This document shows, piece after piece, positions 25,234-44,800 of a DNA stretch of 49,180 bases. The position numbers and the translations under genes are program-made. Source of the DNA: a virus; IMG/VR virus record IMGVR_UViG_3300042459_000392, positions 1-49,180 of that record; one strand, written 5' to 3'. Every line of letters starts with the position of its first letter. Positions within the stretch are counted from its first letter, which is position 1. The notes beneath the pieces were generated by a model. The model ran no database searches, was not told the DNA's origin, and saw only the letters and a list, made by a program, of their open reading frames with translations.

Positions 25234-27153
25234 ATGAAAACACTTAAATTATTGATTATAAGCTTGTTAGCTTGTATGAACATTTATGGACAGACAGGTC
25301 CAGCAGCACCTTCCAGCGGAATATGGGCATTAATTGACACCGCTTATAATGTAGGAACAACTACACAAGGATTTACAAAAGCAAGAGTTACATTAAAAAA
25401 TACCACCACTACAAAAGTAACAGGTGTGCAATTCAGAGTTTTTTATGACAAAGTTGCTTTTAAAAACTCAGTGGTTAGCTTAGTGGGAAGTACAACCAAT
25501 CTTGATTTACAATATGTAACAGATTCTATAAATGGATTTTCAACTATAACATTAATTTATACAGGTAATAGTAGTGCTTATTCCCTTGCTAATGGAGAGA
25601 CTTTTGAACTTACTCTTACACATGCTGCTCCATCTATTTTTAATAATTTAACTTTTATAGACTCTTTGAAATTTTCAGGAGTATCTACCTTTCCACAATA
25701 TGCTTCTACACAAGCAGGGATGGACACAACTTTAGGACTATACAGTTATAATGGAGAATTCAAAAGACCGAAACTTAGCTTCAAAGGTACATTCGCAAAT
25801 GTGAATGGAACTGGAGCTAAAAATTTAACTTTATCTTTAGAAAAGAAGCCTAAAGCAGGGTCATCTTGGACTCAAGTAAACTCTTATAAAACTAATACAT
25901 CAGGTAAATTCTCATTCTCAGAAATATTAGATACAACATTCTGGGATGTTAGATTGGCTGTTAAGGGAGATACAATGGGTGTAGGTAATGTAGTATCTAC
26001 AACAGACGCTCAATTGATTAACCAATGGGTGTTAGGAGTTGGTACTCCGAAAGATTTTGATTTCTATACAGCGGATGTAAATGGAAACTCTAATATTACA
26101 GTGGCGGATGCTTTTGGAGTATTTGGAAGAGTGGCAGGAAGAATAACAAGTTGGTCTAATAATGTAAAAGATATTAAATTCTTTACAGCAGCAGAATATG
26201 CTACAATTACAGGAACGCCTACAACAAACTATACATCAACTATTTCAGGTGTAACTAATTTTTACTTTGATATATTACCAGGACAACCTGACTCGGTTAC
26301 ATATTATGTAGTGGTTCCTGGAGATGCCAACTCTACGGGATACAATATGGCTAGAACAACTCCAACGGAAATACTTATAAATGGTCCGCAAGACTTAGAC
26401 CCACAAACTCATAGAGTTATTGACACTAGAGTGGAATATGACTTCCCAACAAATAATATTGAATTAACTATTCCTAAGTTAAATGTTAACGAAGGAAATA
26501 TGGTTAGCATTCCTGTAAGTTTAAAGTCAGATAGTGTTAGTGTATTAGCTTTGCAATTTGGATTGAAATATGATAGTAGCTTATTATCTTTCAAAGGAAT
26601 CTATTCAAGTGCAAATGCTCAAAAATGGATTACTTATGTGAACCCTAATGAAGGAGAAATATCTTGGGGAGGCTATGATCCTACCACTAATAACAATGCT
26701 TTAAAAAATGGAGATGAAATAATCACTTTCCAATTTATAGCTTTGAAACCACAAGCAGATTGGGGTGTGAGTCCTCTATTCACCTCTAATAAATTTGCAG
26801 GAAACTTTACCTCAAAAGATTTATCTATAACTCCTAGTCATAATATTATACAAGTTAGAAAAATGTCTCCCACTAATATTGGTAGAATTATAGATGCTAA
26901 CACTATGGAAGTTTATCCAAATCCTACAACGGGAATTATAGATATTGTTTTTAATGTAGAAGAAAGCACAAATGCCACATTGGCGGTATATGATATGTTG
27001 GGAAGTTTGCGTATTAAAGTGTTAGACGAACTTGTTGCTAAAGGGCAATTCACTTATAGAGCAGATTTAGGAAACTTATCAGCAGGAGTTTATACAGCAA
27101 AATTACTCCTAAATAATAAAGGAGTATTAGTATCAAAAATTATTAAGCAATAA
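25234..27153 (+). CDS. Exported cohesin/dockerin-like protein with type IX secretion signal (639 aa)
   Basis: Signal peptide 1-19 (cleavage after IYG, Gln at +1). Cohesin-like beta domain about 28-175. A CarboxypepD/Ig-like domain about 180-245. A dockerin-like calcium segment about 250-303, with the loop DVNGNSNITVAD at 281-292. A second cohesin-like domain about 405-540. The C-terminal 80 residues are a type A T9SS sorting domain: EVYPNPTTG (559-567), VYDMLG (585-590), DLGNLSAGVY (611-620) and terminal KIIKQ. Such domains target proteins through the Bacteroidota type IX pore to the cell surface, usually with cleavage and anchoring. A phage copy implies use of the host system to display this protein on the infected cell. 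Confidence 0.85.
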   Translation: MKTLKLLIISLLACMNIYGQTGPAAPSSGIWALIDTAYNVGTTTQGFTKARVTLKNTTTTKVTGVQFRVFYDKVAFKNSVVSLVGSTTNLDLQYVTDSINGFSTITLIYTGNSSAYSLANGETFELTLTHAAPSIFNNLTFIDSLKFSGVSTFPQYASTQAGMDTTLGLYSYNGEFKRPKLSFKGTFANVNGTGAKNLTLSLEKKPKAGSSWTQVNSYKTNTSGKFSFSEILDTTFWDVRLAVKGDTMGVGNVVSTTDAQLINQWVLGVGTPKDFDFYTADVNGNSNITVADAFGVFGRVAGRITSWSNNVKDIKFFTAAEYATITGTPTTNYTSTISGVTNFYFDILPGQPDSVTYYVVVPGDANSTGYNMARTTPTEILINGPQDLDPQTHRVIDTRVEYDFPTNNIELTIPKLNVNEGNMVSIPVSLKSDSVSVLALQFGLKYDSSLLSFKGIYSSANAQKWITYVNPNEGEISWGGYDPTTNNNALKNGDEIITFQFIALKPQADWGVSPLFTSNKFAGNFTSKDLSITPSHNIIQVRKMSPTNIGRIIDANTMEVYPNPTTGIIDIVFNVEESTNATLAVYDMLGSLRIKVLDELVAKGQFTYRADLGNLSAGVYTAKLLLNNKGVLVSKIIKQ

Positions 27154-27164
27154 AAATAAATATT

Positions 27165-27461
27165 ATGTCAGAAGAAATTCAAAATGATGGTTCTATGGAT
27201 AGTTTGAAAAAAACTATTATTGGAGCAATAGGTACATTAGTTACAGCAGCAGGTGTGTGGGCTTCTACACATTTGTTTGGGGGAGAAACTGAGCACAAGG
27301 AAGAAGCTAAAACTGAAACAGCAGCTCCTGCTCCTATTGTAGTGAATATTGAAAACACTAATCAACAAAAGCAAAGTGCAGCTCCTACTACAATCATTAA
27401 AGAAAGAGTTGTAGAGAAGCCTGCTAAAAAAGAAAAAGCTGAAGATGAAAGTCCTTGGTAG
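27165..27461 (+). CDS. Single-span membrane protein with Ala/Pro-rich tail (98 aa)
   Basis: A polar start is followed by one transmembrane helix (about 17-35, IIGAIGTLVTAAGVWAS) and a low-complexity Glu/Lys/Ala/Pro tail (residues 45-98, ending EDESPW). There is no signal-peptidase site, so it is likely anchored in the inner membrane with a long flexible arm that could span part of the periplasm. It overlaps the CsgG-like gene by 17 bases, tying it to that protein. Confidence 0.6.
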   Translation: MSEEIQNDGSMDSLKKTIIGAIGTLVTAAGVWASTHLFGGETEHKEEAKTETAAPAPIVVNIENTNQQKQSAAPTTIIKERVVEKPAKKEKAEDESPW

Positions 27462-28149
27462 TCTAATCTTTTTACCTCTTTTTGCTTTCTCTCAAATAGG
27501 TTCTATTAAAACAGAAGCTTATGTAGCTGATTTTGAAAAGAAACAGAGTTTGGCAGTTGTATCAGATTATGATGATACATTGCAAATTCCTATTTCTATT
27601 CTTAAAATAGGGTTTAATGAAGAATTATACGAATCTTATCCTGAACTTAAAGAAAAGAAAGTGGGGCTTGGTGTAACCAACATTGTCACTGAATATTTCT
27701 TAAATACAAACCGTTTTGTAATCACTGAAGATAAAGCAGAGATTAAAAATAAAATGATTTCTCAGGATAAAGCATCTAGAAAAGGAATCTCTTCAAATAA
27801 GATGGAAGTGTTTGGTAATGTATTATTAGCTAACTACTTTGTTTATATTGAAGTATATGATTTTTCTGTATCAGAAGATGAAGTGGTAAAAATGAATGGC
27901 AAAGCAGAGGCAACTCAAACAACTAGGTTGGGATTGCAATGTAAATTTGTAGATGCTACTACAGGAGAAATCATAGTGGGTTCAGGATTAGGAGAAGCTA
28001 ATACTGTTAAAAAATCTTCCATCCTTGCAGATGTTGATGATATTAAATTTAATCAATCCACTATAGGAATCACCACCAAGAAATCTCTTGAAACCGCAGC
28101 ATCTAGGGTTATAACGAGATTAATTAAAAAAGGTGTCTTTAAGAAATAA
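27445..28149 (+). CDS. CsgG-like exported protein (234 aa)
   Basis: Signal peptide about 1-16 (cleavage after AFS, Gln at +1; no lipobox Cys). The mature part follows the CsgG/HfaB pattern: GLGVTNIVTEYFLNTNRFVI (periplasmic helix and strand), an EDKAEIKNK segment, NVLLANYFVYIEVYDFS and TTRLGLQCKFVDATTGEII, with a final helical part. CsgG family proteins form outer-membrane-linked rings that export curli or stabilise envelope complexes. The Cys needed for CsgG lipidation is absent at +1, so a curli-type pore is less sure; a periplasmic CsgG-like domain is the safer call. Confidence 0.65.
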   Translation: MKVLGSLIFLPLFAFSQIGSIKTEAYVADFEKKQSLAVVSDYDDTLQIPISILKIGFNEELYESYPELKEKKVGLGVTNIVTEYFLNTNRFVITEDKAEIKNKMISQDKASRKGISSNKMEVFGNVLLANYFVYIEVYDFSVSEDEVVKMNGKAEATQTTRLGLQCKFVDATTGEIIVGSGLGEANTVKKSSILADVDDIKFNQSTIGITTKKSLETAASRVITRLIKKGVFKK

Positions 28150-29407
28150 ACTAATAGCTTTATTACTCTTATTAAATGTAAACACTTTTGTTTACTCTCA
28201 AACCTATTCCTATCAATATACTGACCCTTGTACACAAGTAGCTAAAACTATTAGTGTCCCCATTAATGGGAGTACAAAAGTTTCCTATTATGGAAACACA
28301 GAAAATTTCACATACTATGATTTTGTTTCAGGTGCGTTTCAAACATGGTCAGATAATTTATTCAATAAATTTAAAAACAGTTCACCTTGTGGAGAGGCTA
28401 TTGGTACTCCCACAGTTATGAATATTGGACAAGGACAAGTGCTTAACACTGTAGGAATTATAAACTCTATATCAAACATTGCAGAAACTGTTGGTTCAGC
28501 TACATCTAGTATGTCAGCAAATATAGCATCTTCTATAATGCCAAGCTCAAGTTCAATGGGAGAAGGACCTTCTGTATCTACAGAGTCAGGGGGTAACTTA
28601 GGGGGTGTAGGTTCTACAAGTAGTGGTGCACCTAGTGGAGGATCTTCATCTGAAGAAGCTTCTGGAGGTAGCACAAATATTTCAGCAGGAGGTACCAACT
28701 CTGTGAGAGGAGCAGGAGGGTCTAGTGGGGGAGGAGGAAAGGCCAATAAACCTGGAAGTAAAGAAGGGGGGAAACCCGCTATTGTAGCTTCATCTGATTT
28801 TGTAGGATTTAGCTTTAAAGACTCTGAGAAACCTTTAGGAGTTAAAGGGACAGGAGGTTACACTTCTATGAGATGGGATGGGGCGTGCTCATCAGGAATA
28901 TTATTTGATTACACATCTGCACAGGCGGGGCCAAATATAACAGGGTTCTATGCTTGGATAAATCCTTCTAATATAACAATAGCTTCTGGCACTGTAACAT
29001 TCTCTTTAGAGGGAGGAGGAAGTGCCTATTCCACTGTAGCTTTTGGCCAAATGAAAACATTTAAAAAGATTAAGAAGTTAAAACTTATCTATTTAGGAAC
29101 ATTATCTATGGGGAAAGTGTTTAAAGAGGGTTTTATAGGTACCGCTATTATAACAGGAGGGATGTATGATTTAAAGTTACATAAAAGACTAGATGTTAAG
29201 CTAACTAATCTAATTGTGTATTCTCCTTATGTAAGTTATTATAACGATGTACTTATGAAATCTCCCTTTGTAATGCTTCCTAGTGTGGGGGTAAATGTGG
29301 GAGTGACAAAAAGATTTAAAGTAAACATAAATATTGGAGGGGCTTGGCAAGTGGGGCAAAGTGCATTAAATAACACTATAACTTTCGGCACAAGATTATT
29401 ATTATGA
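28133..29407 (+). CDS. Predicted outer-membrane beta-barrel with Gly/Ser linker (424 aa)
   Basis: Starts with GTG at 28133, overlapping the CsgG-like gene by 17 bases; no better ATG exists. Signal peptide 1-22 (cleavage after VYS, Gln at +1). Residues about 23-100 are a soluble N-terminal domain. Residues about 130-215 are a striking Gly/Ser-rich low-complexity linker. The C-terminal 200 residues alternate polar and hydrophobic strands (KLKLIYLGTLSMGKV, FKVNINIGGAWQVG) and end TFGTRLLL, as in barrels inserted by the BAM complex, which carry a C-terminal hydrophobic strand. Likely location: host outer membrane. Confidence 0.65.
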   Translation: MSLRNKLIALLLLLNVNTFVYSQTYSYQYTDPCTQVAKTISVPINGSTKVSYYGNTENFTYYDFVSGAFQTWSDNLFNKFKNSSPCGEAIGTPTVMNIGQGQVLNTVGIINSISNIAETVGSATSSMSANIASSIMPSSSSMGEGPSVSTESGGNLGGVGSTSSGAPSGGSSSEEASGGSTNISAGGTNSVRGAGGSSGGGGKANKPGSKEGGKPAIVASSDFVGFSFKDSEKPLGVKGTGGYTSMRWDGACSSGILFDYTSAQAGPNITGFYAWINPSNITIASGTVTFSLEGGGSAYSTVAFGQMKTFKKIKKLKLIYLGTLSMGKVFKEGFIGTAIITGGMYDLKLHKRLDVKLTNLIVYSPYVSYYNDVLMKSPFVMLPSVGVNVGVTKRFKVNINIGGAWQVGQSALNNTITFGTRLLL

Positions 29408-30393
29408 GAATTATAATTATATTATTTTTTATTTGTAATATAGCTATAGGGCAAAACTTTACCTATTCAGGATTTATTTATAACTCTAATGGTACAGGAG
29501 CAATAAATGTTCCAATACAAATATATAAAAGAACCACTCCTACATTAACAGGATTTACATCTCAACAAAACTATAATGGACATTCTTATTATAGATCTAC
29601 AGGAAATGCGTTTTGGACAGATGCAAGACAAGCTTGTGCAAATATGGGGGGATATTTAGTAACAGTGACAAGTGCTGCTGAAAATAACTTTCTATTTGGA
29701 TTATGGCCTTCAGGATGGATAGGATTAACAGATGAAGTAGTAGAGGGACAATGGAGATGGGTTACAGGAGAACCCTACTCATATTCTTCTTGGAATCCTG
29801 GAGAACCTAATAACGCAGGGAATGAAGATTATGTTCAATTCGTTGGAGGAGGTAGATGGAACGACTTACCTAATGGTATAGCTCTTCCTTATGTAATTGA
29901 ATTTGATTATATTGTAACTTTTACTTCTTGGGTATTACATAAAACAATATACACAGATGCAACAGGTAGATACACTATTAATGAGACAAGTAACCCTGCT
30001 ACAGAATGGTATATTCAAATAAATGCCCCCACTCCTGTAACAACTTTATCTTTAACAGATATGCAAAATGTCTCAAATGTTATATTAGGTAGAACCGCTA
30101 GAAGAAGTTTACATTGGAATATGTATGATGTAAATGGAGATGGTAGGATAACTATATCTGACCAATACTATATTAATTTAAGAAGAACAGGAAGGGTTAA
30201 TAATTGGGTTACAATGACTGCTTCTAGGTTATTTACCACAACACAATATTCTTCTTTAAATACAGGAACTACAGATTTAAGAGCCACTATTCCTGGATTA
30301 AATTCTATTACAATTAATTCTCCTATATCAGGGACTACAAATGCAAACTATTATTTAATAGCCCCTGGATATAGAGGGCAAATAACTTATTAA
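29404..30393 (+). CDS. Exported C-type lectin with dockerin-like module (329 aa)
   Basis: ATGA overlap of 4 bases with the barrel gene. Signal peptide 1-16 (Gln at +1). A C-type lectin domain (about 55-168) carries WIGLTD (105-110), the EPN sugar-binding tripeptide (134-136) and WND (152-154); EPN predicts mannose-type calcium-dependent binding. The usual disulphide cysteines are almost absent (one Cys), so it is a cysteine-poor variant. The lectin sits inside a CarboxypepD-like domain (GTGAINVPIQIYK before it, DATGRYTINE after it). Residues 241-265 repeat the dockerin-like loop (DVNGDGRITISD) seen in the T9SS protein at 25234. Probably binds a glycan on a cell surface. Confidence 0.8.
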   Translation: MRIIIILFFICNIAIGQNFTYSGFIYNSNGTGAINVPIQIYKRTTPTLTGFTSQQNYNGHSYYRSTGNAFWTDARQACANMGGYLVTVTSAAENNFLFGLWPSGWIGLTDEVVEGQWRWVTGEPYSYSSWNPGEPNNAGNEDYVQFVGGGRWNDLPNGIALPYVIEFDYIVTFTSWVLHKTIYTDATGRYTINETSNPATEWYIQINAPTPVTTLSLTDMQNVSNVILGRTARRSLHWNMYDVNGDGRITISDQYYINLRRTGRVNNWVTMTASRLFTTTQYSSLNTGTTDLRATIPGLNSITINSPISGTTNANYYLIAPGYRGQITY

Positions 30394-30395
30394 CT

Positions 30396-30836
30396 ATGAG
30401 ATTTTTATTATTACTATTAGCAATTCCTTTTCTTTCCTACTCACAATGTGTAAAAATTCAAGAGATTAAGTCCTCTGTTGAGATAAAAGAATTAGGAAAT
30501 AGAGATGTAAAATTTGGGGTGAAACAAATGGCAGAAGATATGCTTTCTTCTAAGTTTTGTCTGTCAGATAGTGGAGAACAAATATTCATTGATATATTTT
30601 ATTTTGGTCTTCCTAAAAAAAGTTTAAGGATTATGGGTATAGAAGAATCTGTTCAAACGACAGAAATTGGCATTCAATTAAAATATAAAGGAAAGAAATA
30701 TGAAGAATATGGAGAGTCAGAGTCTGAGATTCATGCAGTTATGTTAGAACTTACAGATGGAATTCCTTTTTCTAAAATGACTGTCTCAACTTCTATAAAA
30801 AAAGCTCTAGAAAAAATTATAAAAAAGATGCCTTAA
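30396..30836 (+). CDS. Exported hypothetical protein of the surface cluster (146 aa)
   Basis: Signal peptide about 1-16 (cleavage after SYS, Gln at +1). The mature part is an alpha/beta protein with two long strands (IFIDIFYFGL, TEIGIQLKYKG) and a C-terminal basic helix. The layout is loosely like CsgG-type or LpoB-type periplasmic domains (compare the paralogous-looking 27445 product), but this is not certain. It is the last gene of the tightly overlapped run. Confidence 0.6.
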   Translation: MRFLLLLLAIPFLSYSQCVKIQEIKSSVEIKELGNRDVKFGVKQMAEDMLSSKFCLSDSGEQIFIDIFYFGLPKKSLRIMGIEESVQTTEIGIQLKYKGKKYEEYGESESEIHAVMLELTDGIPFSKMTVSTSIKKALEKIIKKMP

Positions 30837-30850
30837 TAAAAAAATTGTTG

Positions 30851-30858
30851 TATTTTTG
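30851..30858 (+). promoter_or_regulatory. -7 promoter element TATTTTTG
   Basis: TATTTTTGCA fits TAnnTTTG and lies only 4 bases before the ATG at 30863, so a transcript from here would be leaderless or nearly so. No TTG at the ideal distance. Confidence 0.4.
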
Positions 30859-30862
30859 CAAC

Positions 30863-31300
30863 ATGAAATTATTTATTTTCCTATTAATTTTTACTACATC
30901 TTCTTTTGGTCAAATAAAAATTGCTGATGTTGGTCCTAATTGGAAAAACAGAGTGGATTCTGCCTTAATCTTAATTAAGAAATACGATTCCCATAAATAC
31001 AATCTTTTATTAAAGCACTGTAAAAACATTGGATTTTCAAATCTAAAATTCTCCACCATAGAGGGAGATAACACTATTATACTTTCCACTTATGATGTAA
31101 GCGGAGGTAGCTTAAATAATATAGCATCAGCTATTGTTCACGAATCAGCACATTTATTTTTCTACAACTCTAATTTCTTTTCTACTGCATCCGAAGAAGA
31201 GAGAATTTGTTATAGATATGAGTTAGATTTTTTGCTTAAAATCCCTAATTGTGAAAAGTATTTAATCAACAATGCTTATAAAAATATATTTACCAATTAA
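30863..31300 (+). CDS. Secreted zincin-type metallopeptidase (145 aa)
   Basis: I chose ATG 30863, because it begins a clear signal peptide (MKLFIFLLIFTTSSFG, Gln at +1); the frame also opens at a TTG at 30845. The mature domain carries HESAH (HExxH zinc motif) in IVHESAHLFFYNS, with a downstream ASEEERICYRYELDFL helix that can give the third Glu ligand (gluzincin pattern). The compact size resembles minimal exported peptidases. It may trim a surface protein of the host or the phage's own exported proteins. Confidence 0.7.
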   Translation: MKLFIFLLIFTTSSFGQIKIADVGPNWKNRVDSALILIKKYDSHKYNLLLKHCKNIGFSNLKFSTIEGDNTIILSTYDVSGGSLNNIASAIVHESAHLFFYNSNFFSTASEEERICYRYELDFLLKIPNCEKYLINNAYKNIFTN

Positions 31301-31312
31301 AAAATTTATTTA

Positions 31313-31320
31313 TACTTTTG
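31313..31320 (+). promoter_or_regulatory. -7 promoter element TACTTTTG
   Basis: TACTTTTGCA fits TAnnTTTG and is 60 bases upstream of the reductase ATG at 31381. The -33 TTG is not evident. The leader between them contains TTATTAACTTTTAAAAAATTATC, an AT-rich A-tract leader typical of this genome. Confidence 0.5.
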
Positions 31321-31380
31321 CAACCCCTTTTTTACCCTGTAAAAAAATTATTATTAACTTTTAAAAAATTATCAAAAAAA

Positions 31381-33576
31381 ATGAATGGAAAAACAATAGC
31401 TAGTAAGCTGAAATTCAACGAGTCGTATGCAAAATTTATTAAGTCTGAGAATAGGCTTGAAACTTGGGAAGAGTCTGTAAGTGATGTAATGCAAATGCAC
31501 TACAATAAATTTTCAGGATTATTAAATTGGGCAGAAATAGAGCCTTATTTTAATATTGCTAAAAAAGCATATACAGCCCAAAGAATTTTAGCTTCTCAAA
31601 GAAATTTACAATTTAGAGAGAAAAGCATTATGAAGCATAATTGCAAATTGTACAATTGTTCAGTTACTTATGTAGATAGACAAGAGGTGTTTAAAGAAAT
31701 TATGTGGGTTCTACTAAATGGGGCAGGAGTTGGGTTTTCTGTTGAGTCAAGATTCATAAAAAAACTTCCACAAATTAGGAAGAGAGATAACAGTTCTCAC
31801 TTTGTACATGTAATTGAAGATTCTATTGAGGGATGGGCTATTGCAATAGATGTGCTGATGAACTCTTTTTTCATGGGTACCCAAAAAGTTTTATTTGACT
31901 TTTCAAACATTAGAGAAAAAGGAGCTCTTATAGCAGGAGAATTTATTGCTCCAGGCCCTGATGGTTTGAAAAAATCTTTGGAGTTAATAGAGAAACTATT
32001 AGAAGGCAAGACAATTAATAATGAGAGTGCATTGAGTTCCCTAGATTGTCATGATATTATTTGTATTTTATCAGATGCAGTTTTATCTGGAGGAGTTAGA
32101 AGAAGTGCTTTGATTTCTTTGTTTGACAAAGATGATGACTTAATGCTAAAATCTAAGACAGGTAGTTGGTGGATGGATACCCCTTGGAGAGCAAGAGCGA
32201 ATAACTCAGCTAAAATTCTTAAATCAGAACTTACAAAAGAAGAATTAGATGCTTATAAAGAATTTATTAAGCAATTCGGAGAGCCAGGAGTAGTATTAGT
32301 GGATGATATTGATATGATGGTGAATCCTTGTGTTGAAATTGGATTTAAACCAATAAATCCTTTTACAGGTAAATCTTGTTGGTCATTCTGCAATCTAAAT
32401 GAGATTATTGGATCACACTGCAAAACAGAGGAAGAATTCTACGATGCTTGTAAAGCTGCTGCTATCTTAGGAACATTTCAAGCTTCTTACACTGAGTTCG
32501 GATTCTTAGGAAAAGACACAGAAGAGATGGTTAGATGGGAAGCTTTATTAGGAGTTTCTATTACAGGAATTATGAACAATCCTGAAATATTATTAAATCC
32601 TGAAATCTTAACTAAAGGAGCAGGAATTGTTAAGGAAATAAATGCAGAGGTAGCTAAGTTGATAGGTATTAACCAAGCGGCAAGAACCACCTGCGTAAAA
32701 CCTTCTGGAAACGCTTCTGTATTAGCAAAAACCGCTAGTGGAATTCACCCTGCACATGCTCACAAGTATTTTAGAACTATTCAGCTAAACAAAGATACTC
32801 CTATGGCTAAGTTCTTAAACGAGTCTTACCCTGAGTTATTGGAAGAAGGTGTGTGGAGTCCTACTAATAGTGACTATGCTTGTTTTATTCCAATGGAAGA
32901 AACCCCAAACACTATTGTTAAGTCTCAAATAGATGAGATAGATTTCTTGAAGTCTGTGCAGCTAGTTTATAAATATTGGGTATTGCCTGGTACCAATAAA
33001 GAACTTGGATATAGTGAAACAATTACACATAACGTATCAAATACAGTGAGTGTATCAGATTGGGATAAAGCTTTTGATTACATCTTTGAGAATAAAGAAT
33101 ACTTCTGTGGCCTTTCTTTCCTCCCTAATTCAGGAGATAAAATATACAAGCAGGCACCATTTACAGAAGTTCTTACACAAGAGCAACTAATTAATAAATA
33201 TGGAGATGCTGCTTTGTTTGCCTCTGGATTAATTGTAGATGCATTGCATTGTTTTAATAATGATCTTTGGGATGTATGTTCTGCTGTAACTGACAAATCT
33301 TTTGCTTTGACAGGAGATAGAATCACTGTAATGGTGAAGAAAGACATTGTAAGCAGGATCAAAAAGTTTGCTAAAAACTATTTCAAAGGAGATTTATTTA
33401 AAGCTGCAGACTGTTTAAAAGACATTCACTTGTATCACAAATGGGTGAAAATAAATAGAATCCTAAAATATAAGCCTATCGACTTCTCTAAAATAGACTA
33501 CACAGAAAAATATCTCAATGCAGATGAATTAAGTGGGGCTGCTTGTAGTTCTGGACAATGTGAAATTAACTTTTAA
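31381..33576 (+). CDS. nrdJ: Adenosylcobalamin-dependent ribonucleotide reductase (class II, 731 aa)
   Basis: Reduces ribonucleotides to deoxyribonucleotides using a B12-derived radical, so it works with or without oxygen but needs cobalamin from the host. Start ATG 31381 (MNGKTIASKLKFNESYAKFI); the frame also opens at TTG 31318, but that would add 21 residues overlapping the promoter. N-terminal active-site Cys is C93 (YNCSVTYV) and GAGVGFS lies at 114-120. The thiyl Cys is C317 with E319 in NPCVEIG, and C337 lies in FCNL. The C-terminal redox pair is C722/C727 in ACSSGQCE. This is the monomeric RTPR type, close to the 739-residue Lactobacillus enzyme in length. Confidence 0.9.
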   Translation: MNGKTIASKLKFNESYAKFIKSENRLETWEESVSDVMQMHYNKFSGLLNWAEIEPYFNIAKKAYTAQRILASQRNLQFREKSIMKHNCKLYNCSVTYVDRQEVFKEIMWVLLNGAGVGFSVESRFIKKLPQIRKRDNSSHFVHVIEDSIEGWAIAIDVLMNSFFMGTQKVLFDFSNIREKGALIAGEFIAPGPDGLKKSLELIEKLLEGKTINNESALSSLDCHDIICILSDAVLSGGVRRSALISLFDKDDDLMLKSKTGSWWMDTPWRARANNSAKILKSELTKEELDAYKEFIKQFGEPGVVLVDDIDMMVNPCVEIGFKPINPFTGKSCWSFCNLNEIIGSHCKTEEEFYDACKAAAILGTFQASYTEFGFLGKDTEEMVRWEALLGVSITGIMNNPEILLNPEILTKGAGIVKEINAEVAKLIGINQAARTTCVKPSGNASVLAKTASGIHPAHAHKYFRTIQLNKDTPMAKFLNESYPELLEEGVWSPTNSDYACFIPMEETPNTIVKSQIDEIDFLKSVQLVYKYWVLPGTNKELGYSETITHNVSNTVSVSDWDKAFDYIFENKEYFCGLSFLPNSGDKIYKQAPFTEVLTQEQLINKYGDAALFASGLIVDALHCFNNDLWDVCSAVTDKSFALTGDRITVMVKKDIVSRIKKFAKNYFKGDLFKAADCLKDIHLYHKWVKINRILKYKPIDFSKIDYTEKYLNADELSGAACSSGQCEINF

Positions 33577-35269: not shown

Positions 35270-38200
35270 TTATTCTTGAGAAACTTTTATTTCTTCTTCT
35301 AAGTTTCTACCATAAGCTTTGTAGTAACCATTTCTCAACTTGTAAATCATATTTGCCAGTTCACCTTGAGGTATACCTAATTCATTATATTTATCTCTTC
35401 TTAATTCGCTACTTTGCATAGCGTCTCTAAGTCTATTTCCTATCAAGAAGTCTTTTACGGTTTCATCCAATACATTAACTTCCCTCGTAACATACCCCTC
35501 TTTATCATAGTAGTATTTTGTTTTCATCAAAGGAATTTCTCCCCCTGTTACATCCATTAATTTTTTACCATACTCTTGTGAAAATGGCACTACCCCTGTT
35601 AATTTATATAAGCCAACAGATCCAGACCAGTACATATTTTTAGCTAAATCATCTGCAGTACCTGCAATAGGGGAGGTTTTTCTTAAATCAAAGCCAATTG
35701 AGCCTTCGTTGGCTTTTATTCCCACTGGGTTAAAATTCCAAGAAAATCCAAGTCTTCCTTCTAAAAAAGGAACCCAAGTTCTCAAAAGTTCACTTGATAC
35801 AACTTCAGTTACAGAAGCCATGTATGTAGCAACTTCTTCCTCCTCTAGAGGCGGGTAGACAAATTTCAATGCAGCCTTTAAAAGAAGAAACATAGCTAAA
35901 ATGCTCGCCACTTTTTTATAGTTATCTGCTTCATATTGATTCAATCTCTGTTGCTTATTGGCTTCTATCAATAATTCTTTAAAGATTTCTTCTTTAGTTT
36001 TACCCTTAAATCCTGCATAATAAGCTGGGCCTTCTTTTCTCTCTCCCCCTTGAGCTACAATTGCATCTTGTTCTTCTGCAAATTTTATTGCTTTTTCTTG
36101 TGATTCTGCAGCTTCTAATAAAGATTGTGTAACTATATTTTTATTTTTTGAGAAATATAAAAATACATTTGATAATACTCCCAAGTCTTCTAACAATCCT
36201 TTTGTTTTAATATTATTTAGTCTCATAATATTATTGACACTATCAGGGGATAATTTATCTTTAAATCTATTGCCCACACCTCTTCCTAACACTTTAGCTA
36301 GTGTAATTATAAATCCTTCTTCACTACCTTCTAAGTTTGGATTATTTTTCTTTCTCCCGAGTGCTGTATATGCTCCAGGTAATACATAATTCTGATACAT
36401 AAACAAAGCGGTACCAATGGCAGTAGTGGATATTCTAGGTTTTAACAATATATTATAAACACCCTGAGACCTTTGTCTAAAATAATCTATGTTTTGGAGT
36501 AGGGTTCTATTAAGGTAGAAATCTATTTCTAAAGGCACTAAAGCCTCTTTCTGCAAATTTTTAGGTACAATTGCCCTTAGATTGATGTCTTTTACATACC
36601 CAGGATCTAATTGTAGGTCTTCTGCTTTTTGTATTTCATTAATATTATTGAAATATATTTTCTTAGCAACCTTGTCATCAAAGGAAAGCCTTCCATCTTT
36701 TATGGTTAGATGCTTAATAATGTCAATTTTTTTACCATTCTCATCTATTAGTTTTGTGTCTCTTAAAAATTTATATACAAGAACACTACTAATAAAAGAC
36801 TCTCCTAACTCACTTACTATTTTTCCGTTATTCAGCCTTAATTTTTGTACCAATGAAGAATCAGAATAATCAAAGTCAACAATGCCCCCAAAACTACTTG
36901 ATCTCAAATGTTTTTTAATCATTTGAATTTTATTTTGCTCAAGAGCTACCCGTGAATTCTTCCCTTTTGCTAATAAAAGCATATTAAGAGAGTATATTGT
37001 AGCATCTTTTATAGCAGGCATAGTGGCTAATAACCCACCATTTGCTGAAATCATACTAATACCTGTAAGAATATTCTTTACACCCGTATTAATATTACCA
37101 GTCAATTGGTTGAAACCTGTTTGAGCTGCCAGCACTCTAATAAATTTCATTGCAAAAGAATTTGGATATATTTTATTATACCAATATCTATCAATGTAAA
37201 TAGCCTCTAAATAATCGTCTCCAATAATATTTCCTTCTTTATCCTCTCTTTTTCTATATAAATCATTCATAGCTCTTATAGCTCCTTCATACATAGATTT
37301 ATTTTCATACTCTTTATTGGCGTATATGAAAGATTTAAAATTATCTAAGTATTGGGTGGAACGTAACGCTGGTTCAATATATTCTGTATATTTTCTAGGA
37401 ATAACGTCTATTTTGTTTTTCTTATTAGCTTGTTTTGCATCTACAGCACGAAAAATCTTATGAAACATATTCTTTAGCCAAAGGTCTACCCTTTTACTTA
37501 TCACAGATTCTGACTTTTCAGGGTCTCCTGTACTAATAATATTATCGTCTTTGTTCAGCTCAAACTGTAGAGCTTTGTTATAAACCCCTAATGACTTAGC
37601 TAAAGCAACTGCCATTCTCTTCAAACCTTTAACATCATTTATTCTACCACGAGTATCTACATATATTGATATAAATTTAACAACTTGATTTGCTATTCTA
37701 TTGTAGAAAAAATATGAAAAAATCATAGAAGATACTCCTAGTGTCAAAGGATTTACTAATCCTGCCGCTATTCCAAATAGCATTGGAGTGTTTGCCACTC
37801 CTGCAAAAGGAATTACTACTTGAGTAATTATTTTAGCTACATCAAAATTTACTCCAAAAATATTTATAAATCTTTTGTCACCAAACATTTGTAAATACTC
37901 AGAGTCTTTTTTAGACCCTTTAGGTAAAGAATTAGAAGGAAGGTTATTTTGTTTATTCCATTTTTTAATGTAGTTAACCATGTCCATCTTTGCCACAGCT
38001 AGAGCATCTCCTTTTGCAGCCTTCTCTTCTATGTCTAAGTACTCTTTGTTGGCGTATTCTTTAGCATCAGGGTGAGAGTCGGATAATTCAAACAAAAATT
38101 CATCCCCCCATACATCTATGTTTATCTTATCAGGATAAAAATTTCCATCAGTATCTGTAGCATACCCTATTTTATACTTATATTTATTTAGAAGTCCTTC

Positions 38201-41200
38201 TACAAAATCAAGTTCAGTTTTATAAATAGGGTTTAATTTTTCATTACCATTTTTGTCTAAGTCAGGAGTACCATCTGCTTTTAGCAGAACTCTTTTATCT
38301 TCATCTACAGTAAAATATTTTTCTTCTAATAATGCTCTTTTTTCGGATATTAACTCTTCCAGAGCAGATTCCAAATCCCCAAAGTCATCAGAAATAAGTT
38401 CTATTTCATCATTTGTCCAATCAAAGTTTGGATCATTTAATGCTTCTCTAACATTTACTATATTTCTGTCAATATAGTTTCTTAACGCATCTAAACTATT
38501 GTTACTTAGTGTAGTGGAAGTATAATTTGGAGTGGTATGCTCTAAATCATATAAAGCTTTTTCAGCCATTAAATAATTTTTTGCATGGTCAAATTCTTCT
38601 TGAGTTATTTTATTATCTTTTAATAATTCTCCAAGAGAATCAAATACTTGTTTAGGAGAGTTAAATGCTATTTTTTGTAAACCTTGGATTTGGGCATTAC
38701 TAGCAAAAGGTAGGTTACGCAATTTATCTTTTAGATTTTTTGCTGCTAAATTGGCGTATTTAGAGAAATTTAACTTAGTTATTAAGTTGCCTGTAGACCT
38801 CCCTTTATCATCTTTTTCTGAAAGCCAATCTTGATTCTGAGCGTTAGCCCCATTTTGATATAATCTATTTTCAATTTTTTGAACTTCCGCAACTTCCTTA
38901 GAAGCTCTTTCTTTTCCCATTTGCTCCATAGCCGATACAAATCTATCTACACTCTGTATAAATGTATCATTTTGCATGGTTACAGGAGTAATTCCTTTGC
39001 TAAATAAACTTTTTATATTGCTAAATATTCCTTTAGAATAGTCTATTATATTATTATTTTTATCTGCAATAGTTTTTGCATCTGTATTAGCAAAATCAAC
39101 TTCATTTTGATAATTTAAAAATCTTTTTTGGTCTTCTGTACTCAAAGCAGACATATAAATATCTAAAATTTGTTTTACATTTTTAAGATAAATGCTTTCT
39201 ATCTTTGCAGCCATAACCTTAACTCCCTCCCCATCTAATAAATCGAAAGCTTTTATAATTTCATCGTTCTCTGTTATTGATGGGTCTAAATCATAAATAA
39301 TTTTTTTAAATGCAATCATATCATTAGACTCTAACTTCATTAATTTGGAAGTGCTTTCTATTGATTTTGAAAGAGAGTATAAAGATTGTAAATAATTTAT
39401 ATAACTCGCTAATTTTGACAATGATTTATTATAGTCATCATAGCTTAACTTAATTAAATTATCTCTTTTAAAATCTGTTTCTAATGTTTTAGGTATATTT
39501 AACTTATCAAATTCATTGAAAGAATCTTGTAAACGTCTTATAGTAGCAACGGAAGAAACCACCATACTAGATAAAATCTTTGCTTTATCTGCATCTTGCT
39601 CAGTCTTTTTAGCCAATATATTTAATAAATAATTGGAGGAGTCTAAGGCTTTTTTCTGGTTTGACTCTATAGCTTGTTGTCTAATATTAGACAAGGTATT
39701 TTCTAAGTTTTCTATAAGGAGATTTGCACCTAAATCAAATTTCTCAGATCTTTCATTTAAAACAGCATCGTTTTCCTTTCCTGTAATCTCGAAATTTAAT
39801 TGGTATAGTTCGTCATAATTTATATTAGCAGCATCCAATCCTTCTGCTAAATTTTCACTGAAAAACATTTTCTTCAACTGATTTAAGGAATTTAAGTATT
39901 CCATTTTATCATCTGAAAATAAATCAGAAATATAGTTTATAATTCTTTTTACTACAGATTTAACTGATAAAGGCACCGTTTCTTCTTTATCTTGTAAAGC
40001 ATTTTTAAACACTTTACCCATTATCTCTTCCTCTGTCTTATCTACATCTCCGTCATACTGGGCCAAATACTTGTCATAAAACAATTCATATTCCCTTGTT
40101 CTTGAGATGTATTGCTTTAAGTTTTGGTAAAGCTCCCCATCTTTAGGCAACATAGCTATAATAAAGTGAGCCACCTCTTCGGTAAGAGCATCTGTATTTC
40201 CTTCAGAAACATAGATAACTTTTTCAAACAAATTAGCCACCCCATTAGCAGGTATAAATTTACCTGTCTTTTCAAAGTATTGTTTTTGAAAATCTTCAAT
40301 ATTGGCAATTGTGATACCAAATTTGTCAGCAAAGCTAAGTAATAATTTTTCTAAATTCTTTTCTCTAAAAGAAACAAAAGCTTTAGGTGTAGGGTCTGAC
40401 ATAACTTTCTCATACTGAGAAGGACTGTCAAACATATCAAACTTAGCTCTATAAACAGCTAAATCTAATTCTTCATCAGGAGTTAAATCTGTTCTATCTT
40501 TTAAGTTAGTATATTCAGCCCACTGTTGAGGGATAGATTTAGTAGGCTCAGGGGCTAAGGGTGCTACTCTCTCAGGGTGTGTCTCTGGAGTTGTAGGAGT
40601 GTATGCAGGTTCTTCAAAATCTGATAATGTTAAAAAAGAGTCGGGTAGCTCTTCTGAAGATTTAAATTCTTCTACATCTTCCAATGCAGGTGTTTGTTCT
40701 TTAGATAGTAGGGATTCTACTGCTTTTTGGTCAACCCTTATAAAGTCTGCATCGTTAAACAAAATGTAAGAAAATTTACTCCCTTTAGCAAACCTTCCTT
40801 CGTACTCATTAAAATATTGTAAGGCTTTGAAATCAGGATTAAATCCTTTTATTTTTGAATATAAATCTCTCGTATTCTGTATTCTGTCTTTTCTCGTATC
40901 ATACTCCCAATTTATATTATTTTCGTTAGCCAGCCCGTTTAAATACTTTTTAAAATCAGGAACAGTCCATAACTCTAAATCTTCAATGCCTTCAATATCC
41001 TTCGTATTTATAAACCCTTCATATATTACAGGTTCATACATTTCACCGTCTTCTGTTGACCTTTGACGGATTTCATCATTTCTTGCAAAGTCAGATGCGA
41101 TAGATTTATTTGGAGAGAAATGAAACCCTACATCGGTTGTTTTTTCAAACTTATCAAACTTCTGATTACTTTTAACTCCATGATAAACCTTTAGTGGTTC

Positions 41201-41710
41201 ACCTGTTTTTTTATCTAACAAAAGATTAGTAGCTTCTTGCCCCTTCTCCCAATCTCCGTATTTATCTTTAAACCCCTTTGACCTTACATATTTAGATTCC
41301 GATTCAGATAAATTACTTGGCTTACCATTAGGTGCAAGATGTTCCCCTTTATCATTGTATTGCAACTCCACATCTTTTAATTCAGGGTTAACTTGTCCTT
41401 CAATTTGAGAAACCGCTATCAGATCTTCTTCTGTCACTAAAGGAAGGACATCTACACTTACTTTATTTTCTAAAGCCTTTACTACTTCGGCACCTAAATC
41501 TGTATTTAATTTAGTGACAAAGTCATTCTGAGAGTTTCTTTCTTCAGTGCCTTCTTCGTTAAATACAAAATTACCCTCTTTTCTGTCAAATAGGGTTGAA
41601 TTAGAAATATCTTCAAATACCTTTAAGCCAATATCATTAAGCTTATCCGCTAATTGGGGGTTACTTTCTCTAAATCTTTTTTCTACGTTAGGTAATGAGC
41701 ACTTAGCCAT
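35270..41710 (-). CDS. Giant polyvalent-type phage protein A (2146 aa)
   Basis: Residues about 135-330 look like a polyvalent-protein ADP-ribosyltransferase: YVRSKGFKDKYGDWEKG (a GDWE lead-in typical of such phage proteins) then LKVYHGVKSNQKFDKFEKT and GFHFSPNKSIASDFA. Residues about 500-520 hold a metallopeptidase-like helix DALTEEVAHFIIAML (EExxH, not the canonical HExxH). The long middle is helical and coiled-coil, broken by a hydrophobic stretch about 1283-1345 that could span or disturb a membrane. Another lies near 1935. Such giants are thought to be carried in virions and injected. No RNA polymerase DxDxD motif was seen. Start ATG 41708-41710. Confidence 0.75.
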   Translation of the reverse strand: MAKCSLPNVEKRFRESNPQLADKLNDIGLKVFEDISNSTLFDRKEGNFVFNEEGTEERNSQNDFVTKLNTDLGAEVVKALENKVSVDVLPLVTEEDLIAVSQIEGQVNPELKDVELQYNDKGEHLAPNGKPSNLSESESKYVRSKGFKDKYGDWEKGQEATNLLLDKKTGEPLKVYHGVKSNQKFDKFEKTTDVGFHFSPNKSIASDFARNDEIRQRSTEDGEMYEPVIYEGFINTKDIEGIEDLELWTVPDFKKYLNGLANENNINWEYDTRKDRIQNTRDLYSKIKGFNPDFKALQYFNEYEGRFAKGSKFSYILFNDADFIRVDQKAVESLLSKEQTPALEDVEEFKSSEELPDSFLTLSDFEEPAYTPTTPETHPERVAPLAPEPTKSIPQQWAEYTNLKDRTDLTPDEELDLAVYRAKFDMFDSPSQYEKVMSDPTPKAFVSFREKNLEKLLLSFADKFGITIANIEDFQKQYFEKTGKFIPANGVANLFEKVIYVSEGNTDALTEEVAHFIIAMLPKDGELYQNLKQYISRTREYELFYDKYLAQYDGDVDKTEEEIMGKVFKNALQDKEETVPLSVKSVVKRIINYISDLFSDDKMEYLNSLNQLKKMFFSENLAEGLDAANINYDELYQLNFEITGKENDAVLNERSEKFDLGANLLIENLENTLSNIRQQAIESNQKKALDSSNYLLNILAKKTEQDADKAKILSSMVVSSVATIRRLQDSFNEFDKLNIPKTLETDFKRDNLIKLSYDDYNKSLSKLASYINYLQSLYSLSKSIESTSKLMKLESNDMIAFKKIIYDLDPSITENDEIIKAFDLLDGEGVKVMAAKIESIYLKNVKQILDIYMSALSTEDQKRFLNYQNEVDFANTDAKTIADKNNNIIDYSKGIFSNIKSLFSKGITPVTMQNDTFIQSVDRFVSAMEQMGKERASKEVAEVQKIENRLYQNGANAQNQDWLSEKDDKGRSTGNLITKLNFSKYANLAAKNLKDKLRNLPFASNAQIQGLQKIAFNSPKQVFDSLGELLKDNKITQEEFDHAKNYLMAEKALYDLEHTTPNYTSTTLSNNSLDALRNYIDRNIVNVREALNDPNFDWTNDEIELISDDFGDLESALEELISEKRALLEEKYFTVDEDKRVLLKADGTPDLDKNGNEKLNPIYKTELDFVEGLLNKYKYKIGYATDTDGNFYPDKINIDVWGDEFLFELSDSHPDAKEYANKEYLDIEEKAAKGDALAVAKMDMVNYIKKWNKQNNLPSNSLPKGSKKDSEYLQMFGDKRFINIFGVNFDVAKIITQVVIPFAGVANTPMLFGIAAGLVNPLTLGVSSMIFSYFFYNRIANQVVKFISIYVDTRGRINDVKGLKRMAVALAKSLGVYNKALQFELNKDDNIISTGDPEKSESVISKRVDLWLKNMFHKIFRAVDAKQANKKNKIDVIPRKYTEYIEPALRSTQYLDNFKSFIYANKEYENKSMYEGAIRAMNDLYRKREDKEGNIIGDDYLEAIYIDRYWYNKIYPNSFAMKFIRVLAAQTGFNQLTGNINTGVKNILTGISMISANGGLLATMPAIKDATIYSLNMLLLAKGKNSRVALEQNKIQMIKKHLRSSSFGGIVDFDYSDSSLVQKLRLNNGKIVSELGESFISSVLVYKFLRDTKLIDENGKKIDIIKHLTIKDGRLSFDDKVAKKIYFNNINEIQKAEDLQLDPGYVKDINLRAIVPKNLQKEALVPLEIDFYLNRTLLQNIDYFRQRSQGVYNILLKPRISTTAIGTALFMYQNYVLPGAYTALGRKKNNPNLEGSEEGFIITLAKVLGRGVGNRFKDKLSPDSVNNIMRLNNIKTKGLLEDLGVLSNVFLYFSKNKNIVTQSLLEAAESQEKAIKFAEEQDAIVAQGGERKEGPAYYAGFKGKTKEEIFKELLIEANKQQRLNQYEADNYKKVASILAMFLLLKAALKFVYPPLEEEEVATYMASVTEVVSSELLRTWVPFLEGRLGFSWNFNPVGIKANEGSIGFDLRKTSPIAGTADDLAKNMYWSGSVGLYKLTGVVPFSQEYGKKLMDVTGGEIPLMKTKYYYDKEGYVTREVNVLDETVKDFLIGNRLRDAMQSSELRRDKYNELGIPQGELANMIYKLRNGYYKAYGRNLEEEIKVSQE

Positions 41711-41825: not shown

Positions 41826-44800
41826 CTAGACACAGTCAGGAATTGTAGTAGTATCTTCAAGATTTTCTGAAGGAATCTTATAAGCCCATTCTGGCAATAT
41901 TCCTACTTTTTGGTCAGCAAATTTCATCATCTTATAGGCTTGGTCTGAAAGGACTTTAGCTTCGGCTAATTTACCCTCTTTTCTTAGCTTTCTTGCCTCG
42001 TCTCTTACTTTAAAGGCTTCATCATTTATTCCTGAGAAATTAACAAAAGAGTTTTGTCCTCTAGTTTCAGATGTTATAGCTTTTCTAGCAGTTGGGCTAT
42101 ACATTTGAACGTGAACTCTCCAAGCGTTTTCTTCCCCTACAGGTCCAAATCCATTACCAAGTTTTGCGTGACCAAAGAAATCATGTACAAATCTGAAAAC
42201 ATCATTTGCTAATAGAGGAACATTATTTGCATCTTTAAACTCTGTTACTTGTAGTAAAGGATTTTCCTTTCTTTGTTCTTCTGTAATAGGGGTGTCACCA
42301 AACCCAGCCTCTGTGGAGAAAATTTTCATTCTTTTATTCTCTCTCAAATCATCAATCATTTCTTGAGCATTATCGTATTCAGAAGTACTCATTTCTACTC
42401 TATACCCTTCTGCCAAAATGGCTCTATGTTGGGCAATCGTTTCTTCAACTAATGCTTTATAGGCCTCCTGAGTCTCTTCTTCAAAAGGGGTGGCTACCAT
42501 CTCATCATAAGTTTTTGAAAGTCTAGTGGCAAAAGGTTTGTCAATTTTAGTGATGGTGTTGTCTACCATTGGTGCCAAACCATTTTCTTCATTATATTTA
42601 TTTGCAATTGTTGTAGCCTCTAATAATGGATTATTAAATAATCTATTTCCTGGAGCTACTACTACAGATTTTTGTACTTGTTTATTTTCCTCAAATTTCA
42701 TTTCTGCATTTTCTTCTTCAATAACTTCATCTGCATCCTCTACTGCTTGCCCCTCTTCATTTTGACTAATAGTATAATCAAATTTATTTCCTGATTTTTT
42801 CCACTTATCATAGGTATAATTTGCGGCATCTTCATAACTAATTCCTTCTATTTTAGCTCTAACCCCTAAAGTTTTATAAAGATTTTTTTCAAAATACCAA
42901 AGAATAGCTTGTACATCTGCAATAGTTAAATCATAGCCTTGTTTATTTAATTTATTAACTGACTCAGATATTGTGTCATACATAAATTGACGGTCTTTTT
43001 TAGTAAAAGGAACGTCATTTAAATTTTCAAAAGCTGCTTTATATATAGAATTTGCTGCTTTTTCAATATCAGACCCGTTTCTATACCCTTTAGCTGCGTA
43101 TGAGTCTCTATAAGACTTGGCAGCAAGCAAAGCTTCTTCATTTGTCATTGCTGGAGTACCTAATAACTCTTTAAGTCTATCAAGCCCAATAGCTTCGCCT
43201 TTTTTAGTAAACCCACTATTTACTTCAGGAATTAAGGTACCACGGTACCTATTAAAAGTTCTAGACCACCATCTGTCTAGTGTAGGATAAGATTCATTCC
43301 CCGATAAATTTGCATAGAACATCCCAAGTTTAGGCCCAAAAACAGATGATGCAAATGGAGCTTTAAAGCTTGTAGGCCAATTTGTAGTTAAGGGATCTAG
43401 TCCTTCTGTCTTCCTTTTTTTATTAATTTCTTCAATAGAATTAACATTCATTAAGTCTTTCTTAATAGCTGCTATATCTCCATTGTATTCACTTAATAAA
43501 TCATTTATTCGTTTTAGATTGTTTTCAAAGGAAGCCATTCTTTGACCAGGAACCGTTTTAGGCATTACTCCATTTTTCTTGTAATAGTCATAGGCAAATG
43601 AAGCTAATTTAAAATTAGTCATAACTTTCTGTCCATCAGACATTATCGCAACAAGCATTGTAAATAAATCTCTAGCATTCTGATCAGTTTTCATTTCTGG
43701 AAATACTTTTTCCATTGTATCTAAAGATTTTTGATATAATTCACCATACCAATCTTTGCCACTTTTTTCACCCATTAAATTAACAAAATATTTTACTTCA
43801 TCTACCATCCAGTTTGATATTTTTTTTCTTGCTTCTGGTGAATTGTCTTTCTGGTCAATAGTACCGTATTTAGCTCTTTGTCTAGCTTGAAGTGCTTCTC
43901 CAACTTTTCTTGTTGCATTTTTACTATCAGTTAATCCAAACTTATTAAGGGATTCTTTTCCTTCTATTATGGCCACTGCTTGTCTCATTAATTCTTCATA
44001 TTGAATTACTTCGTCTTTGTTTATAGAAACTCCTGACAACAAATCAACTGCTACCGCTTTGGCATAATCATCTATAGTCATATCCATAATCTGATCGGCA
44101 GTAAATTGAGACAATCCAAGCATTTGGCCAATAGCATCCCATAATTCTTGTAACCAAGACTTAGTTTTAGTACTATTTTCTTCCACTAGTCTAGCTCCGT
44201 TATCTCCAATCGCTTGAGCCAATACCTCTTCTAAAAACGCATCACTGTCAACTTTTAGATCAGGTTGAGTTTCCATTACATATTGACGATATGGATCAGC
44301 CTCGGAAGACTTAGCTAATTCTAAACCTCTTGCATACGCTTCTCCAAGATTATTTTTAGCCCAAGATAACCATAAGTGACCGAACTCATGTATAGGGGTA
44401 TCAAGATTCATATTATCCATGTTCAAATAAACATCTCCATTATAAACAAATCCTGCAGTTGTAAAAGTAACATTATCGGCACCAAATTCAACTAATTTCT
44501 CTTCAATCTCTGCATTAGACATTTCAAAGACCTCGTTAGCCAACCCTGTTTCTTTTAATCTCCCAACTACCTCACTCATAGTAGCAGAAGCAACTTCACT
44601 ATTAGCAGAAGGAGTTTCTTCTACTTCATTAAGCATATTTACCAACTCTCTTGCTCTTTCTATATCACTATTCATGCTTTCAGGTAAACCCGCCACCATG
44701 GTGTCAAATTGAACATTTGAAGGAATTATTTTACCAACTCTCGTATTTTGTGCCATAAAATACCCTTCTTTATAATCTTGATTTGCGTTTCTTTCATTTT

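Follow-up and report, generated by a model that had tools for sequence, protein, structure and literature searches.

What use does a phage have for a run of genes whose products appear to leave the cytoplasm? The question is raised by IMG/VR virus record IMGVR_UViG_3300042459_000392, a stretch of 49,180 bases with Bacteroidota-phage character that was analyzed at full length and is referred to here as the window. Positions 25234–31300 contain a block of seven open reading frames (ORFs), all on the plus strand: coh, arm, csgG, barrel, lect, p146, and a gene for a putative exported zincin. The initial annotation, made from the sequence alone, described six adjacent genes plus the zincin gene and regarded their products as exported. 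All seven ORFs are present where it placed them. In support of export, six of the seven products in the window carry a signal peptide, and Coh bears a sorting domain of the type IX secretion system (T9SS). The genes are tightly packed, with 17 bp overlaps between arm and csgG and between csgG and barrel, a 4 bp overlap between barrel and lect, and remaining intergenic gaps of 2–11 bp. The answer put forward here is a tentative one: the block may be an envelope module that acts at the outer membrane of the host together with the lysis proteins of large Bacteroidota phages, and that also supplies a T9SS-displayed scaffold with a swappable glycan binder.

Conservation and phage restriction

The block is a conserved, essentially phage-only unit, found in many large phages that infect aquatic Bacteroidota. 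A single-sequence search of IMG/VR with the CsgG-like protein recovered 46 loci with 47–100% identity, and a profile search recovered at least 384 IMG/VR stretches, on contigs of up to 309 kb. Following dereplication at 95% identity of the CsgG-like protein, 25 lineages retain at least 5.5 kb on both sides of csgG, and in all 25 of these coh, arm, barrel, and p146 lie beside it; lect is present in 24 and a zincin-family gene, at times on the opposite strand, in 17. All 25 lineages keep the order coh-arm-csgG-barrel, so that the proposal to look for this arrangement in phage contigs from metagenomes has a clear positive outcome. Variation is confined to the remaining genes: lect and p146 swap places, lect precedes coh in Flavobacterium phage immuto, and p146 precedes coh in lineage L041.

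Several lines of evidence bear on the origin of the block. First, among annotated phages, searches with the CsgG-like protein and Coh match only four records, all of phage immuto; in this cultured phage (host Flavobacterium sp. LMO8) the block corresponds to gp013–gp019, with gp013 as the lectin gene, coh split into two genes (gp014–gp015), gp016 as arm, gp017 as csgG, and gp018 as barrel, and a knock-out is therefore feasible. Second, two of 84,980 bacterial genomes matched, both on phage-like contigs of metagenome-assembled genomes (MAGs) that carry a GH19 endolysin gene. A search of 395 Bacteroidia genomes returned one of these same MAGs and nothing else; its matching contig also encodes phage tail-collar-like proteins and an endolysin. 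The other match is a 12.6-kb contig. A host-derived or prophage operon was rejected because both genome matches are on phage-like contigs. Third, absence from relatives or a chimeric contig, either of which would have undermined the original proposal, was looked for, and the block instead recurs in immuto and in many contigs; a chimera or assembly artefact was rejected on these grounds, and the unusual G-rich start of the window is likewise found inside relatives.

The genes of the block differ in how closely they evolve together. Correlations between pairwise identity matrices are high within the core (barrel–p146 0.88, csgG–p146 0.74, coh–barrel 0.71) and poor with lect (0.26–0.33). All of these values are inflated by shared ancestry and only the contrast between core and accessory genes is used, which indicates that the core is inherited together and that the lectin slot is exchanged. 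The CsgG-like protein is the most conserved product of the block, with a median identity of 69.9%.

Linkage to lysis genes

Clustering of the flanking ORFs identified recurrent neighbors: a GH19 endolysin (PHROG endolysin, 4.7e-68), endo10, which is a second relative of PHROG endolysins (1.3e-12), and hol81, hol7, hol8, and hol47. For hol81, the matches are Phage_holin_4_1 (1.4e-5) and a PHROG holin; the other three hol families encode small membrane proteins with one or two spans that were labeled holin-like by size, topology, and position alone. Within 7 kb, the GH19 endolysin is present in 18 of 25 lineages, a holin-like gene in 20, and both kinds in 17. Holin-like genes lie inside the block itself in 17 of the 25, and an endolysin gene touches the block or lies no more than 1.5 kb away in 17. 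GH19 is encoded in 17 of the longer records (93–309 kb), and in 15 of these (about 10 lineages) it lies less than 5 kb from csgG, compared with a chance placement of roughly 3–12% per record; no p-value is attached to this count since the records are not independent.

The layout of lineage L041 is the best single clue to function. This lineage has no lectin gene and no T9SS match, an endolysin gene lies within its block, and two holin-like genes are positioned between arm and csgG, which suggests that the invariant job of the block is tied to lysis and that the lectin is an add-on. Lineage L050 has the same two holin-like genes between arm and csgG, with the endolysin gene directly downstream of the block. 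One holin-like protein in each of these lineages (L041 8893–9525, L050 8905–9477) has a C-terminal tail that contains DxDGDG repeats resembling EF-hands, together with a Cys-rich motif. Because the block adjoins, or is intermixed with, endolysin and holin-like genes in most relatives, a contribution to lysis, which stood last among the roles offered by the initial annotation, is now a leading reading, with the window lineage and immuto as exceptions. Surface remodeling, blocking of second phages, and nutrient capture, which that annotation also put forward, are hypothetical.

A mechanism consistent with this linkage would place Arm in the inner membrane, reaching outward by a disordered tail with a Trp tip, while the CsgG-like protein and p146 would form an outer-membrane-associated ring with a 12-strand barrel. 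These four proteins would constitute one assembly joining the inner and outer membranes, which would open or destabilize the outer membrane as holin and endolysin fire, the job that spanins perform in other phages. Coh would reach the cell surface through the host T9SS and hold the exchangeable, dockerin-like lectin there, its cohesin presumably binding the dockerin-like domain of Lect; the surface lectin might then either tether the complex to glycans on the cell surface or cover them during the burst. In its boldest form, with a trans-envelope complex of arm, CsgG-fold protein, and barrel replacing spanins while the host T9SS displays a cohesin scaffold to which an exchangeable lectin is attached, the proposal is somewhat less likely than the tentative reading given above.

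A number of observations weigh against a lysis role. The window's own lineage lacks the linkage: its block adjoins dUTPase-side genes on one side and, 17 bp downstream, a ribonucleotide reductase (RNR) gene on the other rather than lysis genes, and in its relative G401 a distance of 62 kb separates GH19 from the block. In immuto, the GH19 match lies about 29 kb from the block. An RNR gene flanks the block in 7 of 26 cases, which could mean earlier expression, and the endolysin identity matrix follows that of the block weakly (0.32–0.41). Furthermore, hol7, hol8, and hol47 are putative holins by size, topology, and place only, pore formation by the CsgG-like protein is putative, and the lectin and T9SS scaffold would be dispensable for a spanin-like act. 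The spanin genes of phage T4 lie apart from its endolysin and holin genes, and thus the exceptions represented by the window lineage and immuto do not alone refute a role in lysis.

The predicted trans-envelope proteins

Curated-family searches returned no match for four of the seven proteins, namely the CsgG-like protein, Arm, Barrel, and p146. The arm gene (27165–27461) encodes an N-terminal hydrophobic segment, ~55 disordered Pro-rich residues, and a conserved acidic tip ending in Trp, with this C-terminal residue found in every representative examined. The single N-terminal segment is moderately hydrophobic (maximum KD19 1.43), making membrane insertion likely, not certain; the description of Arm as an inner-membrane protein stands with that qualification.

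The csgG gene (27445–28149) encodes a protein with a signal peptide in the window and a lipobox-like signal in many relatives. An AlphaFold monomer model built from the family alignment (pTM 0.64, mean pLDDT 70.5) has CsgG (4uv2) as its best Foldseek match, with an E value of 1.7e-8; FlgT and PelC are also matched, and the CsgG alignments have 11–15% identity. The Pfam CsgG profile (PF03783) found no match at E≤1 in the eight records searched, in which positive controls matched. Direct membership of the CsgG family by sequence was therefore rejected, and the original CsgG-like assignment survives as a likeness of fold. The models are of moderate confidence, and hence a fold is claimed rather than structural detail. 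The p146 gene (30396–30836), described originally as a small partner, encodes a small exported protein that turns out to be distantly related to the CsgG-like protein (profile match, E 1.4e-5).

The barrel gene (28133–29407) encodes an N-terminal domain with DPC..PC cysteines, a low-complexity linker, and a C-terminal domain (28778–29401) modeled as a beta-barrel. The AlphaFold model, again from the family alignment, contains 12 consecutive strands (residues 216–423) with pLDDT mostly 65–85 and a whole-model mean of 62.4, and Foldseek matches it to the solved outer-membrane barrels NalP, FapF, and OmpG at about 1e-6 to 1e-5. The predicted outer-membrane barrel is thus in line with the earlier description. 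Kinship with FapF was considered and dropped; FapF scores do not exceed those of autotransporters and porins, and the likeness is treated as generic. These folds bear on another explanation, in which the block is a curli-like secretion pore for uptake or export of a substrate, unrelated to lysis. The CsgG fold and the resemblance of the barrel to the Fap amyloid exporter FapF would fit such a pore; however, Pfam CsgG is unmatched, the barrel is equally like many unrelated outer-membrane barrels, and no substrate was recognized, making this explanation quite improbable.

The proposed surface scaffold and the lectin slot

The coh gene (25234–27153) encodes a signal peptide, an N-terminal region that is probably cohesin-like as judged from weak matches in relatives, CNA-B-like and dockerin-like segments with an X segment, a cohesin domain (26458–26790; PF00963, E 6e-11), and a C-terminal T9SS (Por) sorting domain (26911–27144; PF18962, E 2e-13). 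Whole-protein Pfam searches gave Por_Secre_tail at 7e-11, cohesin at 7e-10, and a weak Dockerin_1 match at 0.01, and TIGR04183 matches the tail at 4e-10. With its signal peptide and scores of 42.7 bits for PF18962 (cut-off 27) and 39.6 for TIGR04183 (cut-off 23), Coh has the features of a T9SS type A substrate, and it is probably placed on the cell surface by the host T9SS. The cohesin domain is also above its cut-off (39.6 versus 24.1 bits). The dockerin-like stretch (25990–26112), a partial PF00404 match that aligns with the C-termini of lectin-slot proteins, is below it (16.5 versus 22.9 for the whole protein), with a conserved second F-hand loop and a degenerate first. Of the original description as a T9SS cohesin/dockerin protein, the first two parts are thus firm and the third is weak. 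Cohesin matches in 20 records all fall within the single coh locus, usually as two domains, and PF18962 occurs once per phage, always on coh, in 17 of 18 records. In L050 (8204–8575) and L041 (8204–8569), variants without a detected T9SS tail, coh is followed by a small gene for a lipoprotein-like product whose C-terminus resembles a sorting domain. The idea that dockerin-tagged virion proteins dock on Coh was set aside, as elsewhere there are just scattered sub-threshold matches, such as 20 residues in an 843-residue immuto ORF.

The lect gene (29404–30393) encodes a signal peptide, a CNA-B-like domain interrupted by a C-type lectin domain, and a dockerin-like plus X C-terminus, with no T9SS tail. 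As originally proposed, the lectin domain is unambiguous (Lectin_C, 5e-16; 59.7 bits versus a cut-off of 22.6). Dockerin_1 is weak for the whole protein (19.8 versus 22.9), rising to 23.2 with the neighbors in the frame, and the protein has one conserved F-hand loop, the second, rather than two intact ones. Variants of this slot carry a C-type lectin alone, a C-type lectin with LamG (Laminin_G_3), or GEVED, and share the dockerin-like C-terminus.

These surface features raise a close rival to the lysis proposal, in which Coh and its swappable lectin coat the infected cell and hide a presumed glycan receptor from rival phages, excluding superinfection and also keeping released progeny from sticking to debris, with Arm, the CsgG-like protein, p146, and Barrel exporting and anchoring the coat. 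The recurrent T9SS tail on Coh (17 of 18 records) fits this explanation, and binder swaps out of step with the core (r 0.26–0.33) are expected if the slot tracks host glycans. The slot protein, having a signal peptide and no T9SS tail, would need another exit route. In addition, a gene for a DNA/RNA non-specific endonuclease with a signal peptide adjoins the block in 5 of 25 lineages, including immuto. Such a gene is found at L037 (6178–6756) and at L027, L040, L052–L054, L066, and L082; its product possibly clears DNA at lysis or acts against incoming phage DNA. However, receptor masking does not specifically predict the lysis linkage, lectin-less L041 still has its other block genes in the company of lysis genes, and cohesin–dockerin binding is putative. 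Masking is accordingly judged possible, on the unlikely side. Phage T5 Llp is a precedent in that it hides the FhuA receptor. Blockers of this type likewise would act from the infected-cell surface near the end of infection; Llp, however, is one small lipoprotein and the block is a multi-gene envelope module.

A placement of the block proteins on particles, as virion or tail decoration, is very improbable. Phage fibers are known to contain C-type lectin and LamG domains, with LamG in jumbo-phage virion proteins (PMC7824862), and lineage L049 has tail-collar-like neighbors; yet the signal peptides on six of seven proteins and the T9SS tail on Coh in the window are unneeded for cytoplasmic virion assembly.

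Relation to known systems

The closest published case is the partial curli operon (CsgGF) of pelagimyophages and methylophage Melnitz, for which a role in lysis regulation was proposed in Melnitz (PMC9004378). Like the block, it is a small conserved operon with a phage-borne CsgG-fold protein; unlike it, the block has no Pfam CsgG match, includes a T9SS cohesin protein, Arm, Barrel, a lectin, and p146, and belongs to phages of Bacteroidota hosts. For pelagimyophage curli operons, sibling capture was proposed, in which infected cells are made adhesive and new hosts are kept near (PMC7029224). The adhesin-like Coh and lectin would suit this idea, and its proposal for phage CsgGF lends it a precedent. 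However, clumping was not observed for Melnitz, which carries CsgGF (PMC9004378), the lysis linkage is not predicted, and neither CsgA/B-like subunits nor CsgE or CsgF were recognized by Pfam among the window neighbors, where no profile search was aimed at these families. Sibling capture is therefore improbable, and together with virion decoration and a curli-like pore it is less likely than the lysis or masking explanations.

Spanins resemble the predicted block complex in pairing an inner-membrane-anchored periplasmic arm with a partner on the outer-membrane side, and their genes usually adjoin those for endolysin and holin. The block differs in that Arm has a Pro-rich tail that looks disordered where a spanin would have a coiled coil, the partner is a CsgG fold plus a barrel, and extra surface proteins are present. 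No significant match to spanin families was found for the block, the best being PHROG Rz-like at 0.059. Arm has a transmembrane-like segment, and the coiled coil of an i-spanin and lipoprotein of an o-spanin are not seen; the location beside endolysin and holin genes holds for 17–18 of 25 lineages and not for the window lineage or immuto. The bacterial CsgG/PelC/FlgT fold family provides the best Foldseek matches, and many block relatives have lipobox-like signals as CsgG does, whereas the block protein is 11–15% identical to CsgG and phage-restricted, and any transmembrane hairpins in it are hypothetical. Cellulosome cohesin–dockerin systems likewise combine a cohesin-bearing surface scaffold with a partner ending in a dockerin-like domain; in the block, the dockerin has one conserved F-hand loop, there are no enzymes, anchoring would be by the T9SS, and the setting is a phage. 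A known defense system was rejected as the identity of the block, since the PADLOC models of anti-phage defense components match none of the seven proteins.

As the CsgG profile and the spanin features apart from neighborhood in most relatives failed, the block was filed under no known system. No account of the module was found in the literature searched on phage T9SS substrates, cohesins, and Bacteroidota spanins, nor any phage-encoded T9SS substrate; the main text of a study of Bacteroidetes jumbo-phage RNA (PMC9723584) mentions neither cohesins nor secreted proteins. With the caution that the original description of immuto (Immutovirus) lies outside the literature covered and that the function is inferred, the block appears categorically new as a gene module. 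Outer-membrane breach by Bacteroidota phages is poorly described. Here a widespread module, with CsgG-like relatives in at least 384 IMG/VR stretches, links a host secretion system and a CsgG fold to lysis genes and to glycan-binding domains that can be exchanged. Either an outer-membrane lysis route or surface masking, if true, would represent new phage biology.

Other features of the window

The last gene of the block, for the putative zincin (30845–31300), probably starts at the ATG at 30863. The proposed secreted zincin retains its HESAH motif (31139–31153), while its family match is limited to a sub-threshold Pfam SprT-like hit (E 0.14) and weak PHROG matches.

Elsewhere the window encodes a family A DNA polymerase, a Sak4-like protein, a DNA primase, the RNR, and two giant minus-strand proteins. 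The RNR (31318–33576) is of the B12-dependent single-chain type; the close relatives L008 and L010 carry nrdB and nrdA at this position, which represents an RNR swap. An SLT transglycosylase with an N-terminal hydrophobic segment (12179–12817) is a possible signal-anchor endolysin of the window lineage. The giant proteins (35270–41710 and 41826–49178, minus strand) comprise 2,146 and at least 2,450 residues, and the first has an ART-PolyVal ADP-ribosyltransferase match, under the curated cut-off, in its N-terminal part. The first 520 bases of the window are G-rich (55% GC versus about 31%), of low complexity, and apparently non-coding. Parts of this segment and the next 400 bases recur inside G401, G414, and G416 at 75–89% identity, and the G-rich start therefore belongs to the phage, where it may have a regulatory role or serve as an origin.

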